Source of the DNA: Corynebacterium pseudokroppenstedtii
Lineage (GTDB): Bacteria > Actinomycetota > Actinomycetes > Mycobacteriales > Mycobacteriaceae
NCBI RefSeq assembly: GCF_019754945.1
Contig: NZ_JAEUWU010000002.1
Coordinates: 372,001 to 436,000 of the forward strand
Length of the DNA: 64,000 nucleotides
Reading direction: 5' to 3'
The translations under genes were made by a program, and so were the position numbers. Below, in pieces: positions 56,292-63,252 of the stretch (positions are counted from its first letter, which is position 1; every line of letters starts with the position of its first letter). The notes beneath the pieces are model-generated. The model had not been told where the DNA came from. It saw only the letters and a program-made list of their open reading frames with translations, and searched no databases.

Positions 56292-57548
56292 GTGGTTCAG
56301 CGTCAGTTCCCGAATCCGAAAGAAATTAGGGAATATCTGCACTTCAAGAAGCCCGAGCTGAATTTGAAGAAGCGTCGGTTGGAAAACGCTTTGACGATTT
56401 ATGACTTGCGGAAGATTGCAAAGCGTCGCACTCCGGCATCGGCGTTCGATTACACGGATGGTGCTGCAGAAGGGGAGATTTCTATCGCCCGTGCTCGCAA
56501 GGCATTTGAGGACGTGGAATTCCACCCGTCCATCCTCAAGGATGCTTCCGAGATCGATATGAGCACGTCGATCCTAGGTGGGCCATCCTCCCTGCCATTT
56601 GGCATCGCTCCGACGGGGTTCACTCGCCTCATGCAGACTGAAGGTGAGGTCGCGGGTGCAGGTGCAGCCGGTGCAGCGGGCATTCCATTCTGCTTGTCGA
56701 CGCTGGGCACCACTTCGATTGAAGACGTGAAGGCCACCAACCCGACGGGACGTAACTGGTTCCAGCTGTACGTGATGCGCAAGCGCGAAATCTCCTATGG
56801 ACTGGTTGAACGCGCAGCACAAGCCGGCTTCGACACCTTGTTCTTCACCGTCGATACACCGGTGGCCGGCAACCGGATGCGCGATGTCCGCCACGGTTTT
56901 TCCATTCCGCCGCAGTTGACGGTGAAGACCGTCGTCGACGCGATCCCGCGCCCCTGGTGGTGGATCGACTTCTTAACGACGCCTCCGCTGGAGTTCGCCT
57001 CCCTGAGCTCGACCGGCGGCACCGTGGGCGAACTGCTCAACAACGCCATGGACCCCACGATCAGCTTCGACGACCTGAAGACGATTCGTGAGATGTGGCC
57101 CGGCAAGCTCGCCGTCAAGGGCGTTCAGAACCTTGAGGACTCCAAGAAGCTCGCCGATCTTGGCGTCGACGCCATTGTGTTGTCCAACCACGGTGGACGC
57201 CAGCTCGACCGCGCTCCGGTGCCATTCTTGCTGCTCCCCGAGGTTGCCCGCGAAGTCGGCAAGGACGTGGAGATCATGGTGGACACCGGCATCATGAACG
57301 GTGCCGATATCGTCGCCGCGTTGGCCCTGGGTGCAGACTTTACCCTGATTGGACGTGCTTACCTGTACGGCTTGATGGCTGGTGGCCGTGCCGGTGTGGA
57401 CCGGACCATCGAAATCTTGCGGTCGCAGATCGAGCGGACCATGAAGTTGTTGCAGGTCACGAGCATTGAGGAGCTAGGCCCTCATCACGTCACGCAGCTC
57501 ACTCGGTTTAACCGTGTGGACTCGTCGCGCGACGATGCAACTGTGTAA
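56292..57548 (+). CDS. lldD: L-lactate dehydrogenase (quinone), FMN-dependent
   Basis: 418 residues. Family of FMN-dependent hydroxy-acid oxidases. FAPTGF-type flavin loop seen as [30 protein letters not shown] with the substrate Arg, [12 protein letters not shown] with the catalytic His, and [19 protein letters not shown] with the FMN phosphate site. It oxidises L-lactate to pyruvate at the membrane quinone pool. GTG start with AGGAGT 6 bases upstream. In C. glutamicum the same enzyme is paired with a lactate permease and LldR repressor. lldP follows on the same strand after a terminator. Confidence 0.95.
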
Positions 57549-57575
57549 CTCGCAGCGGGAAGGCTAGTTCTCCCA

Positions 57576-57602
57576 CTAGCCCTTCACCAGTGTGAGGGCT
57601 AG
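57576..57602 (+). terminator. Hairpin terminator after lldD
   Basis: CTAGCCCTTCAC (57576-57587) pairs with GTGAGGGCTAG (57592-57602), four-base loop and one bulge. It separates lldD from lldP, which therefore likely has its own promoter. Confidence 0.7.
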
Positions 57603-57823
57603 CCTCCAGCGTCGCCACGGGTGCGGTTGGTCGCGCCGGGCGCCTGGCCGCTAGTGAATATGATTGACGCCACGGTGAACCGTTTGCGTCTTTAGGTTCC
57701 CGTTTGGGGGTAAAAATCGGGGCCTGTCTGACGTCTACATGCGGTTTCCCGTGGTTTTTAGTTGTAGCATCATCACGAATTTTGTCCCGTTTAGGGTGAT
57801 CGTAGAAGATGTGACTAACACGG

Positions 57824-57834
57824 TGGTTTCACCA
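57824..57834. promoter_or_regulatory. LldR-type operator upstream of lldP
   Basis: TGGTTTCACCA exactly fits the LldR consensus TNGTNNNACNA, within the longer palindrome GGTGGTTTCACCAC. It is about 118 bases before the lldP start. No lldR gene lies in the window. The rest of the gap 57549-57951 holds no gene. Confidence 0.65.
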
Positions 57835-57951
57835 CGTATGTGTTGTACATCACTATTTTCTGCTGGTGTGTGAGAAGCAGTCTGGGTGATGCGTAGTTTG
57901 TCCCTCGGCATCCCCCAGTGATGCCCCTGAAAAGTGAGAATAACCAGTGTC

Positions 57952-59640
57952 ATGAGTTCCACCTATCAGCCCGATTTGGCTCCGCTGGCAGATAATCTAT
58001 TTGTCTCCGCGTTGGTAGCTTTCCTCCCCTTGGCCACAATCTTTGTCACACTCGGAGTACTGCGGTGGAAGGCCCATTGGGCGGGCCTGACCGCCTTGGC
58101 CGTCTCCTTCGTCATTGCTATCGCAGCCTATGGAATGCCCGCCCACCTTGCGGGCCTTGCCGCCACCCAGGGCGCGGTGTTCGGCATCTTCCCGATCATG
58201 TGGATCGTCATCGCGGCGATCTGGTTCTATGAGATCACGGTTCGCTCGGGCCGCTTCCAGGACTTACGAGCCCTCATCGATCGACTTTCCGACGATCCAC
58301 GCGTGCAGGCAATTCTTATCGCCTTCTGCTTCGGCGGCATGTTGGAAGCGTTGGCCGGATTCGGTGCGCCCCTGGCCATCACCGGCGTCATGCTCCTGAC
58401 CATCGGATTCTCCCGTATGCGCGCTGCGGTGTCGGTCATGGTGGCTAACACTGCTCCGGTTGCCTTCGGTGCTGTGGCAACGCCGATCATTACCGCTGGT
58501 GCGTTGTCGGGTATTGATTACCAGCACATCGGTGCCATCGTCGGCCGACAGACCCCTATTTTGTCCGTCTTTATCCCACTCTTCCTGTGCATTTTGGTGG
58601 ACGGAAAGCGTGGTTTGAAAGAGTGCTGGCCGATCGCGTTCGTTATTGGCCTCGTATTCTCCCTCACCAAGTTCGTGTTCTCTAACTACATCTCGGTGGA
58701 ACTGACTGATATTGCGGCAGCTCTGATGGGTGTCGCTGCCACCGTGATCATGCTGCGCGTGTGGAAGCCGAAGGGCACGGAAGAAGCCCGCGAGCGATTG
58801 TTCGTGGAACGGCAAAAGGAGGACCAGGAAGCTGGTACTCAAGACATCGCTGGTGCAGAGACGGTTGCGCAGGAAACAGAGGAGCGTGAGCTCACCCCCG
58901 GCCGGACGTTCATGGCGCTCTTCCCGTATCTCCTCGTTCTTGTGGTCTTCTCCCTGGCCGAGCTATGCGATCCGGTGAAACACTTCCTGAAGAGCACAGA
59001 CGTCACGATTCACTGGCCAGGTTCAGACGGCCACATTCTGACCGCCGGCGGCAAGGTGTCGGGCGCAACCATCTTTGAATTCACGTGGCTCTCGTCGCCA
59101 GGAACTCTACTGATCATCTCGGGGTTTATTGTTGCCGCTGTGTACCGGGTGTCTTTGAAGGTTTTGGGCCAGGCTTATTGGGAGAATTTGGTGAAGATGA
59201 AATTCTCCATTTTGACAGTTGCTTCCGTGGTTGCCTTGGCGTATGTCATGAACCAGTCCGGTCAGACGATCACGATGGGTACATGGATTGCCGGCGTGGG
59301 TGCGGCCTTCGCGTTCTTCGCCCCGATTCTCGGCTGGCTGGGCACTGCGGTGACCGGTTCCGACACCAGTGCAAACGCATTATTCTCGACGCTACAACAG
59401 ACGGCTGCTGTCAAAGCGAATGTGGATCCTGCTCTCATGGTTGCATCGAATACGTCCGGTGGTGTCGTCGGTAAGCTGGTCAGCCCCCAGAATCTGACCA
59501 TTGTGGCGACGGCGGTCGGCTTGGTTGGACGTGAGTCCGAGATTCTCCGGAAGGTGGTTCTCTGGAGCGTCGGACTTCTGATCGCCCTATGTATCATCAA
59601 CGGGTTGCAGGCAACTGTGTTGAGCTGGATGATTCCGTAA
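57952..59640 (+). CDS. lldP: L-lactate permease
   Basis: 562 residues from ATG 57952. LctP family secondary transporter with about twelve or more helices; IFPIMWIVIAAIWFYEITVRSGRF, FCFGGMLEALAGFGAPLAITGVML and the late GSDTSANALFSTLQQTAA with NTSGGVVGKLVSPQN are family signatures. It takes up L-lactate with protons for LldD. GTG 57934 is in frame six codons upstream and less likely. An LldR-type operator lies upstream. Confidence 0.95.
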   Translation: MSSTYQPDLAPLADNLFVSALVAFLPLATIFVTLGVLRWKAHWAGLTALAVSFVIAIAAYGMPAHLAGLAATQGAVFGIFPIMWIVIAAIWFYEITVRSGRFQDLRALIDRLSDDPRVQAILIAFCFGGMLEALAGFGAPLAITGVMLLTIGFSRMRAAVSVMVANTAPVAFGAVATPIITAGALSGIDYQHIGAIVGRQTPILSVFIPLFLCILVDGKRGLKECWPIAFVIGLVFSLTKFVFSNYISVELTDIAAALMGVAATVIMLRVWKPKGTEEARERLFVERQKEDQEAGTQDIAGAETVAQETEERELTPGRTFMALFPYLLVLVVFSLAELCDPVKHFLKSTDVTIHWPGSDGHILTAGGKVSGATIFEFTWLSSPGTLLIISGFIVAAVYRVSLKVLGQAYWENLVKMKFSILTVASVVALAYVMNQSGQTITMGTWIAGVGAAFAFFAPILGWLGTAVTGSDTSANALFSTLQQTAAVKANVDPALMVASNTSGGVVGKLVSPQNLTIVATAVGLVGRESEILRKVVLWSVGLLIALCIINGLQATVLSWMIP

Positions 59641-60325: not shown

Positions 60326-60339
60326 TTCATCATGATGAA
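60326..60339. promoter_or_regulatory. 14-base perfect palindrome upstream of nrdIF
   Basis: TTCATCATGATGAA is its own complement and lies about 78 bases before the nrdI start, in the gap 60179-60416. A smaller hairpin AGCGCC/GGCGCT is at 60243-60257. It could be an operator for the nrdIF promoter; it does not match NrdR or DtxR boxes. Confidence 0.4.
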
Positions 60340-60416
60340 TGATAAAGTTCAACCCATTGAATGATGAGGGGCGAACGAGCCCCCTTCAGATCTATCCGCC
60401 TCCACGTGGGAGAACT

Positions 60417-60860
60417 ATGCCGAGTTCATCTAGTGCGCCTGGAACCCACCTTGTCTACTTTTCATCTGCCTCGGGCAACACTGCGCGTTTCGTGGATAAA
60501 CTCCACCTACCCGCGGTCCGAATCCCGATGAGATTGAAAGCTCCCGAGCTTCATGTGTCGGAACCGTATGTGCTTATCACTCCAACGTATGGGGGAGGGG
60601 ATATCGCTCGAGCGGTTCCGCGTCAGGTTATTCGCTTTCTCAACGACGAACAGAACCGACACCTGTTACGCGGAGTAATAACCAGCGGGAACACGAATTT
60701 TGGGGCCGCATTTTGTTGTGCAGGCCCCGTAATTGCGTCGAAATGCCAGGTTCCGGAGCTCTATCGATTCGAGTTATTAGGGACGAGTCGTGATGTTGAA
60801 AAAGTCCGGAATGGATTGACGGAGTTCTGGAAACGCGTGAACGAAATAGAAACCCTTTAG
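60417..60860 (+). CDS. nrdI: Flavodoxin-like NrdI
   Basis: 147 residues from ATG 60417, with GGGAGAA upstream. FMN-binding loop [17 protein letters not shown], then LITPTYGGG and [14 protein letters not shown], all NrdI hallmarks. NrdI supplies the oxidant to the R2 subunit: superoxide/peroxide for class Ib and class Ie. The longer frame from 60339 is rejected because it has no ribosome site. nrdF begins 13 bases after its stop. The CC pair in FGAAFCCAG is usual. Confidence 0.93.
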
Positions 60861-60873
60861 AGAGGAAAATGGT

Positions 60874-61926
60874 TTGTCCTATATCGATGATTCGATAACC
60901 CCGGCTGAATGGCCCAGGTGTGCCGAAAAGCCATTGCGGCCGGTGAATTGGAATCGCTTACAAGATCCGAAGGACTTGGAAGTGTGGCAGCGATTGACGG
61001 GAAACTTTTGGCTTCCTGAAAAGGTGCCTCTGTCCAATGATATTTCCAGTTGGAATTCGCTACCTGAAGATCTGCGCCAACTCACCGTGAAAGTTTTCAC
61101 CGGATTAACGTTGCTTGACACTGTTCAGGCGACGGTGGGTGAAGTGAGTCAGATACCGGATGGCAGAACCGAGCATGAGCAGGCGGTATATACAAACATT
61201 GCGTTCATGCAGTCCGTACATGCCAGGAGTTATAGCAGTGTTTTTAGCACGTTGTGCAGTACTCCGGAGATCACGGAAGCCTATAGGTGGGCAACGCGCA
61301 ACAGTGTGCTCCAGCAGCGTGCCACTACGGTGATGAAACACTACTATGGCCGGGATCCTTTAAAGCGGAAAGTAGCAGCCACACTGCTGAGTTCACTGCT
61401 CTTATACGCCGGTTTTTATTTGCCATTGTGGTTGAGTTGTCGAGCTAAACTCATGAACACCGCTGACATGATTCGTCTTATTCTTCGTGATAAAGCTGTT
61501 CACGGTTATTATTCCGGATATAAATTTCAGCGGGGGCTCGATGCCCATCCTGAGAGGAAAAATGAGCTCCAAGAGTTTACGTATTCTCTGGTGGACGAGC
61601 TTCTAAATTTGGAGAAAACTTACTCAGGTGAGTTGTATGGCGATATCGCTGCGCCCGATGATTCTCGCAAGAGTGCAGAATCCTCATTCACCTCGCGTCC
61701 GAACTTCGCGGGTGTTATGGCCTTTGTCTATTACAACGCGAACAAAGCTCTCATGAACCTTGGTTATCCAGCCCTGTATGAAGATGAAGCTGAGCGGACC
61801 GAACCAGATATTTTGGCCGCACTCACGCCTGAGGCATCAGAAACGCACGATTTCTTCAGCGGCTCCGGGGCCTCCTATGTGATTGGGAAAACCGAAGCGA
61901 CAGAAGAATCAGACTGGGATTTTTAG
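60874..61926 (+). CDS. nrdF: Ribonucleotide reductase R2 subunit of the metal-free class Ie (QSK type)
   Basis: 350 residues, TTG start with AGAGGAAAA upstream. Clear NrdF: NFWLPEKVPLSNDISSW, GLTLLDT (Asp82), YTNIAFMQSVHARSYSSVFS, LLYAGFYLPLW, RDKAVHGYYSGYKFQ and tail EESDWDF that docks to NrdE. In class Ib R2 the metal ligands are D, E, H, E, E, H. Here Asp82, His116 and His210 remain, but the glutamates are Gln113, Ser173 and Lys207; the radical tyrosine is Tyr120. This QSK triplet defines class Ie, which works without metal by a DOPA radical. nrdI precedes it by 13 bases; nrdE is absent from the window. Confidence 0.93.
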   Translation: MSYIDDSITPAEWPRCAEKPLRPVNWNRLQDPKDLEVWQRLTGNFWLPEKVPLSNDISSWNSLPEDLRQLTVKVFTGLTLLDTVQATVGEVSQIPDGRTEHEQAVYTNIAFMQSVHARSYSSVFSTLCSTPEITEAYRWATRNSVLQQRATTVMKHYYGRDPLKRKVAATLLSSLLLYAGFYLPLWLSCRAKLMNTADMIRLILRDKAVHGYYSGYKFQRGLDAHPERKNELQEFTYSLVDELLNLEKTYSGELYGDIAAPDDSRKSAESSFTSRPNFAGVMAFVYYNANKALMNLGYPALYEDEAERTEPDILAALTPEASETHDFFSGSGASYVIGKTEATEESDWDF

Positions 61927-62109
61927 CAGATGCGTAGGGCAAGTATTGGGTAGCTGGCCAGTTGTTTATCTCCAGTCAGCGTGAAGTAAAGTGCCGTAGC
62001 CCCATGTTTCATCTAAAGTTTTCAAGCGGAGAATTTCGGGGGTTTCATCACTTGATCGCATCAGTCAGTGATCGTCGGATTTCTTACTCCAAAGGTATTT
62101 ACTTTTTGT

Positions 62110-62128
62110 TATGCTAAGCCTAGCCTTA
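62110..62128 (+). promoter_or_regulatory. DtxR (iron) box
   Basis: TATGCTAAGCCTAGCCTTA matches 16 of 19 positions of the DtxR consensus (TWAGGTWAGSCTWACCTWA) and is near-palindromic. It lies 84 bases before the binding-protein start, in the otherwise gene-free gap 61927-62211. Iron-loaded DtxR should repress the transcript. Confidence 0.75.
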
Positions 62129-62211
62129 ATGTAAATGTCGTTAGTTAATCCCGGTCACTGGCCACTGGCGATGGAGTATTTGTGGTAGGCCGAAATTTTC
62201 CAAGGAGAACG

Positions 62212-63252
62212 ATGAAAGTTCAACGTTTCCCGTCATGTAATAAGCATAAGCGGAAGTATACCTTTGGGCTCGCGGTGCTTACTTCCGCTTCGCTCCTGCT
62301 AGTTGGTTGCACTAGTGACAGTAGTGACGCTTCGAATCGCGAAAGCCAGACAAGTCAGTCTTCGTCCTCCGAAGCCACACAGTCTGGCGAGATCACACTA
62401 AAGAACTCGTGGGGCGAAGCGAGCTACCCAGTGAAACCTGAACGTGTAGTTGCGACAGGTACGGCTGTAGATAACTTACTCGCGCTAGGAATCAAACCGA
62501 CGGCCATTATTCACACCCCTACTGACAAAGAACGCCCATGGCAGAAAGAAAAGCTCGAGGGCGTTGAAATCATCGATGCAACAAATGATGGCGAGCTGCC
62601 TGTCGAGAAGATTGCAGCTATACACCCGGATTTCATTGTTGGTGATTACTGGCGAATCACAGAACAAAGTTATGGGGTTTTGAAGGATATTGCGCCGACA
62701 CTAGGTGCCACCGGTACCCAGGGTGGAGAAATAGGGTGGGCATCACAATTAAAGCAGTTAGGTAAGCTCTACGGTAAGGAAGCAAAAGCCAAAGAGATTG
62801 TTGATGCCGACCACAAGCGCTTTGAGGAAATGAAAAAAGCTATCCCAGATTTGAAAGGAAAGACTGGGATTGTGGCTCAGTTCGTTGGGGATAGTCATCA
62901 GTTCGGCGTCGTGACAGATCCGAAGGAACCGGGCAACGCTTTCTTCTATGACTTGGGAATGTCTGTTCCTGAATCAGTCCAGAAGTTACCGTCAAACAGC
63001 TCAGGGCGTGCAATGGTGGCAAGTGAAAACATCAGCGCTTTAAATGCAGACTTCATGGCAATTTACGCCCAGTCTGGTTCAGATGAGGAGATGCGACAGA
63101 TTCCCGGGTACACCGATTTGACCCAGGTTAAGAAAAAGGCGACGAAAGTTGGGGACAGTGCTCTTGTGCAGGGGCTTAACGTCCCGAGTTCATTAAGTCG
63201 CGAATGGTTGCTCAAAGAGCTACGGCCAGAGTTAGAAAACGCCGCTAAGTAG
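62212..63252 (+). CDS. Iron-siderophore ABC transporter substrate-binding lipoprotein
   Basis: 346 residues from ATG 62212 (AAGGAG 5 bases upstream). Lipoprotein signal with lipobox LLVGC, Cys33 being the lipidated residue, then a Ser-rich linker. The FhuD/CeuE-type body has ERVVATGTAVDNLLALGIKPTAI and PDFIVGDYWRITEQSYGVLKDIAPT. It should bind a ferric siderophore outside the membrane and deliver it to an ABC importer, whose other parts are not in this window. A DtxR box lies upstream. The frame from 62182 (10 residues longer) is less likely. Confidence 0.88.
   Translation: MKVQRFPSCNKHKRKYTFGLAVLTSASLLLVGCTSDSSDASNRESQTSQSSSSEATQSGEITLKNSWGEASYPVKPERVVATGTAVDNLLALGIKPTAIIHTPTDKERPWQKEKLEGVEIIDATNDGELPVEKIAAIHPDFIVGDYWRITEQSYGVLKDIAPTLGATGTQGGEIGWASQLKQLGKLYGKEAKAKEIVDADHKRFEEMKKAIPDLKGKTGIVAQFVGDSHQFGVVTDPKEPGNAFFYDLGMSVPESVQKLPSNSSGRAMVASENISALNADFMAIYAQSGSDEEMRQIPGYTDLTQVKKKATKVGDSALVQGLNVPSSLSREWLLKELRPELENAAK

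Follow-up and report, generated by a model that had tools for sequence, protein, structure and literature searches.

A stand-alone nrdI-nrdF locus of class Ie (QSK) type with a predicted manganese-responsive operator in Corynebacterium pseudokroppenstedtii

A stand-alone nrdI-nrdF locus lies on the forward strand of a 64,000-nucleotide stretch of the Corynebacterium pseudokroppenstedtii genome (the window; contig NZ_JAEUWU010000002.1, positions 372,001 to 436,000). The gene nrdF (60874..61926, forward strand) starts with TTG and encodes, without an internal stop, an R2 subunit of ribonucleotide reductase (RNR) of 350 amino acids. It is preceded at a distance of 13 bases, as an earlier note on this DNA had stated, by the gene for the flavoprotein NrdI (60417..60860, forward strand; PF07972, 2e-46; TIGR00333, 2.5e-48). 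The start of nrdI was picked from the sequence and is likely the ATG at 60417, with GGGAG just upstream; the start of a longer open reading frame, at 60339, sits in the promoter region. In this region, 54-71 bases before the ATG, lies a predicted MntR operator, AGTTCAACCCATTGAATG (60346..60363), which has two mismatches to a palindrome of the genus, AGTTCAAYNNNTTGAACT.

The window protein is an R2 of the NrdF type (PF00268, 1.3e-77; NCBIfam class 1b beta models above cut-off), and its closest named match is from C. parakroppenstedtii, with 95% protein identity, which places the window in the C. kroppenstedtii group. The class Ib ligand set of four carboxylates and two histidines is not present, the protein having Q113, S173 and K207. 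The active-site codons are those of D82 (61117), Q113 (61210), H116 (61219), Y120 (61231), S173 (61390), K207 (61492) and H210 (61501), all on the forward strand; the earlier note had named all seven residues and given exactly these codons for the three replacements. Alignment with the solved R2eQSK (PDB 8rag/8rah) is free of gaps through residue 225 at a constant offset of 30, so that D82/Q113/H116/Y120/S173/K207/H210 correspond to D112/Q143/H146/Y150/S203/K237/H240 and Q, S and K stand at the positions of the three glutamates. The seven-residue signature is identical in all 80 best relatives from a species-level genome collection, which span Corynebacterium, Brevibacterium, Brachybacterium, Bifidobacterium/Gardnerella, Streptomyces and others. 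In a quick tree with some long branches the QSK rows split from the class Ib rows with a Shimodaira-Hasegawa-like approximate likelihood ratio test (SH-aLRT) value of 100. The AlphaFold model, with a mean predicted local distance difference test score (pLDDT) of 83, has 8rag as its top fold match. From the signature, the closest structure and the tree we assign the protein with near certainty to the class Ie R2 subunits (QSK), as proposed earlier, a known kind that is common in the genus.

The accompanying remark that reports in corynebacteria are rare was mistaken, because QSK occurs widely across the genus and a survey of it has already been published (PMC11846895). In a search of 242 Corynebacterium genomes about 110 gave a QSK-like match, as judged by a gap in identity. 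DNA was read for 89 QSK-type Corynebacterium loci, that of the window among them, and every one carries the seven-residue signature. The 2025 survey lists 104 nrdIF arrangements with nrdE elsewhere (PMC11846895). The QSK nrdF of C. pilosum DSM 20521 (L012 5001-5990; G130) contains an in-frame TAG and has probably decayed in this strain.

The closest relative of solved structure, R2eQSK of Gardnerella vaginalis / Bifidobacterium vaginale (8rag, 8rah), has been shown by experiment to be metal-free and shares with the window NrdF the seven active-site residues, about 62% identity and an NrdI partner. It differs in that the window nrdIF is a separate pair in a genome that also has a complete class Ib set, and the window NrdF carries a 17-residue loop insertion. 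In the R2eQSK structure the site of metal 1 is filled by a lysine amine and the site of metal 2 by a water molecule, and the protein contained no more than traces of Mn and Fe (PMC11846895). R2eVPK of Mesoplasma florum and Aerococcus urinae (6gp2, 6ebo) has the metal-free principle and the dependence on NrdI in common with the window protein, but carries V/P/K instead of Q/S/K, is encoded in the gene order nrdFIE and is 45-48% identical. The class Ib R2 proteins of Corynebacterium (1kgn, 3mjo, and the copy on contig C1 of the same genome) share the fold and NrdI and are expected to share NrdE, whereas all glutamate ligands and the dimanganese site are retained there.

The genome encodes two R2 proteins, two NrdI and one R1, and no NrdD. 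The other RNR set, located on contig C1, consists of nrdH-nrdI-nrdE, a ferritin-like gene on the opposite strand and then an nrdF with all ligands, whose product reads D-E-H-Y-E-E-H. Because there is one R1, the QSK R2 would, if functional, have to use the single NrdE, and both R2 proteins should share it.

AGTTCAAYNNNTTGAACT forms a clean palindrome upstream of nrdI in relatives, while the window copy is degenerate on one half. Among 69 stand-alone nrdIF-QSK loci of Corynebacterium, 34 have a box with at most two mismatches, as do 17 of the 38 that remain after removal of near-duplicates; these counts treat the loci as independent, though they are related. The background was 0.06-0.08% of dinucleotide-preserving shuffles, and none of 276 coding windows from the same loci contained the box. 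On a quick tree, with 3-mismatch copies scored as a box, the state of the box changes at least 10 times, and its distribution is therefore not the outcome of one single inherited event. The box is present in almost every member of the clade to which the window locus belongs, and the sister species have it at the same position as the window copy. The genome encodes an MntR (P0002) with Fe_dep_repress, Fe_dep_repr_C and FeoA domains. Its gene is divergent from the gene of a ZnuA/MntA-type (manganese/zinc) binding protein, and the mntA-mntR interval contains a related box with three mismatches. No box within three mismatches was found near the class Ib nrdHIE genes of this genome.

Corynebacterium diphtheriae served as a positive control. 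Genome G039 was identified as this species because its DtxR matches the PDB sequence from C. diphtheriae at 100% identity; G225 was rejected, its DtxR being only about 80% identical. The best box in the whole of G039, with no mismatch, precedes nrdI-nrdF(QSK), and one of two boxes with a single mismatch is flanked by sodA and an oxidoreductase gene (gene names assigned by eye from translations). According to PMC13001254, MntR regulates nrdI-nrdF2, sodA and the adjacent oxidoreductase in C. diphtheriae, and DtxR was shown not to bind the nrdI promoter. As the G039 boxes coincide with genes reported to be MntR-regulated, the box is very probably an MntR site, an assignment made through the regulon genes that flank it. 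By its signature, the product of the nrdF2 that MntR controls in C. diphtheriae belongs to class Ie (QSK); a 2023 review (PMC9936198) still assumes that the enzyme of this species is manganese-dependent. The C. diphtheriae pair (DIP1923-DIP1924) resembles the window locus in being a stand-alone nrdIF with the QSK signature and a palindromic box before nrdI, and the genome likewise encodes a second (class Ib) NrdF elsewhere. It differs in that the box is perfect there and degenerate in the window, the NrdF proteins are 70% identical, and regulation was measured there and is predicted in the window.

The other MntR-type box with one mismatch in G039 (C1:1961409; L239 1501-1518) is about 60 bases from a response-regulator-like gene. 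This gene is absent among the MntR-regulated genes shown from PMC13001254, and the box may mark a further target or be due to chance.

Other elements were seen at related loci. A different shared element, GGTGCTACGTACTTCAA, lies before nrdI in a boxless subset (L130, L132, L165-L167), and an mntR-like gene is found within about 2 kb of nrdIF in genomes G056, G070, G071 and G206, which have the GGTGCTACGTACTTCAA element. Palindromes of the TTCGGCATGCCGAA type are present upstream of nrdI in other actinobacterial nrdIF-QSK loci (L036, L043, L055, L065, L085), perhaps as the site of another metalloregulator.

The reading that we prefer, with a probability of roughly 0.8, is that a metal-free class Ie R2 and NrdI drive the single NrdE, that nrdIF is under repression by Mn-MntR, and that the two R2 proteins are swapped in manganese starvation. 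By analogy with the Gardnerella protein, NrdI and O2 would hydroxylate Tyr120 to dihydroxyphenylalanine (DOPA) and then oxidize DOPA to the radical, while Lys207 would fill the place of metal 1 and no metal would be bound; this R2 would then drive the only NrdE of the cell. In manganese-rich cells Mn-MntR on 60346-60363 would repress nrdIF, and the Mn-dependent NrdF from contig C1 would serve the same NrdE. In manganese starvation the repressor would leave the box and the metal-free R2 would take over. The earlier note had proposed a role in starvation for manganese or iron. The manganese half gains an independent line of support from the MntR-type box and the MntR-regulated QSK ortholog of C. 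diphtheriae; the iron half does not, no DtxR box lying before nrdI.

Several observations weigh against this reading. The window box has two mismatches, and equally good sites occur at seven places in the same genome, so that it is not significant alone; it is the position and the conservation of the box that carry the case. Such a box is missing from about half of the stand-alone nrdIF-QSK loci. In the 2025 work, purified R2eQSK showed no DOPA radical, and NrdH and R1 were found to raise the DOPA modification (PMC11846895).

The boxless loci also fit a class Ie R2 that is expressed constitutively or on another cue, such as oxidative stress or growth phase, and acts as a second ordinary source of deoxynucleotides. 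Other corynebacteria carry QSK within nrdIEF and 40 Corynebacterium species depend on QSK alone (PMC11846895), so class Ie chemistry as such is not tied to manganese stress, and NrdR-like boxes occur at some nrdIF-QSK loci of other genera (L014, L020, L052, L072, L085). We regard this explanation as unlikely for the window locus, given that nearly all members of its clade have the box and that MntR regulation has been reported for the ortholog in C. diphtheriae (PMC13001254). It is very improbable that the window R2 still binds metal as a class Ib enzyme with altered ligands: D82, H116 and H210 are kept and the fold is class Ib-like, but all three glutamates are replaced, and the equivalent lysine occupies the metal-1 site of the solved homolog with its traces of Mn and Fe. 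A decaying or catalytically dead paralog, perhaps only stabilizing the class Ib R2, is hardly credible, for although the in-frame stop of the C. pilosum copy indicates that loss of QSK nrdF does occur, the ratio of nonsynonymous to synonymous substitution rates of the window nrdF, 0.07-0.08 against three sister species, indicates purifying selection, Tyr120, Asp206, Trp46 and Tyr335 are invariant among 36 QSK proteins, and the Gardnerella enzyme is active (PMC11846895).

Class Ie QSK itself is already known and common in the genus; what this analysis adds is the palindrome before nrdI and its probable link to MntR. No paper joining class Ie to MntR was found in the literature search, and PMC11846895 treats class Ie without discussion of manganese regulation. 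What merits further study is the predicted manganese switch; the sequence ahead of the locus suggests that R2e is induced when manganese runs out. Genomes with a Mn-R2b and an R2e, one R1 and a Mn-responsive operator bear on the question why evolution has retained a metal-free RNR, and would allow a direct test of R2 swapping under manganese scarcity. We lean towards a manganese-sensing swap of corynebacteria in which an MntR-repressed R2e replaces Mn-R2b on the shared NrdE, so that DNA synthesis continues when the host withholds manganese. If true, the swap could explain how host-associated corynebacteria grow when manganese is withheld from them, and would join two literatures that have been treated separately, the enzymology of class Ie and the MntR regulon of C. 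diphtheriae.

The 17-residue insertion of the window NrdF (codons ~260-276; 61651..61701, forward strand) was located by alignments and the AlphaFold model between two helices, where it is predicted to be a disordered loop (pLDDT <50 for residues 261-272). It is distant in sequence from the active-site residues. This length is confined to the C. kroppenstedtii group, the insertion being shorter in relatives, including C. diphtheriae. It accompanies Tyr or His in place of the usual Arg in the following FVRYNA motif, the change in the C. kroppenstedtii group being Arg to Tyr.

Before nrdI, a possible but weak extended -10 promoter element, TGATAAAGT (60340..60348, forward strand), was recognized by eye and touches the predicted operator; scans for the sigma-70 promoter consensus and for terminators gave nothing above chance. 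Consensus boxes of DtxR, NrdR and Zur before the window nrdI were rejected, the best matches having 10, 7 and 6 mismatches, respectively. A palindrome at 60326-60339, TTCATCATGATGAA, was dropped, as it is broken in the sister species.

Downstream, nrdF is followed by the gene of a siderophore-type iron-binding lipoprotein (62182-63252, forward strand), which is preceded by a DtxR-like element, TTATGCTAAGCCTAGCCTTAA, at 62109-62129. Such a lipoprotein gene also adjoins nrdIF in C. parakroppenstedtii (L006). Upstream of nrdIF, at 56292-59640 on the forward strand, a gene similar to those of flavin mononucleotide (FMN)-dependent L-lactate dehydrogenases is followed by the gene of a lactate permease of the LctP family.
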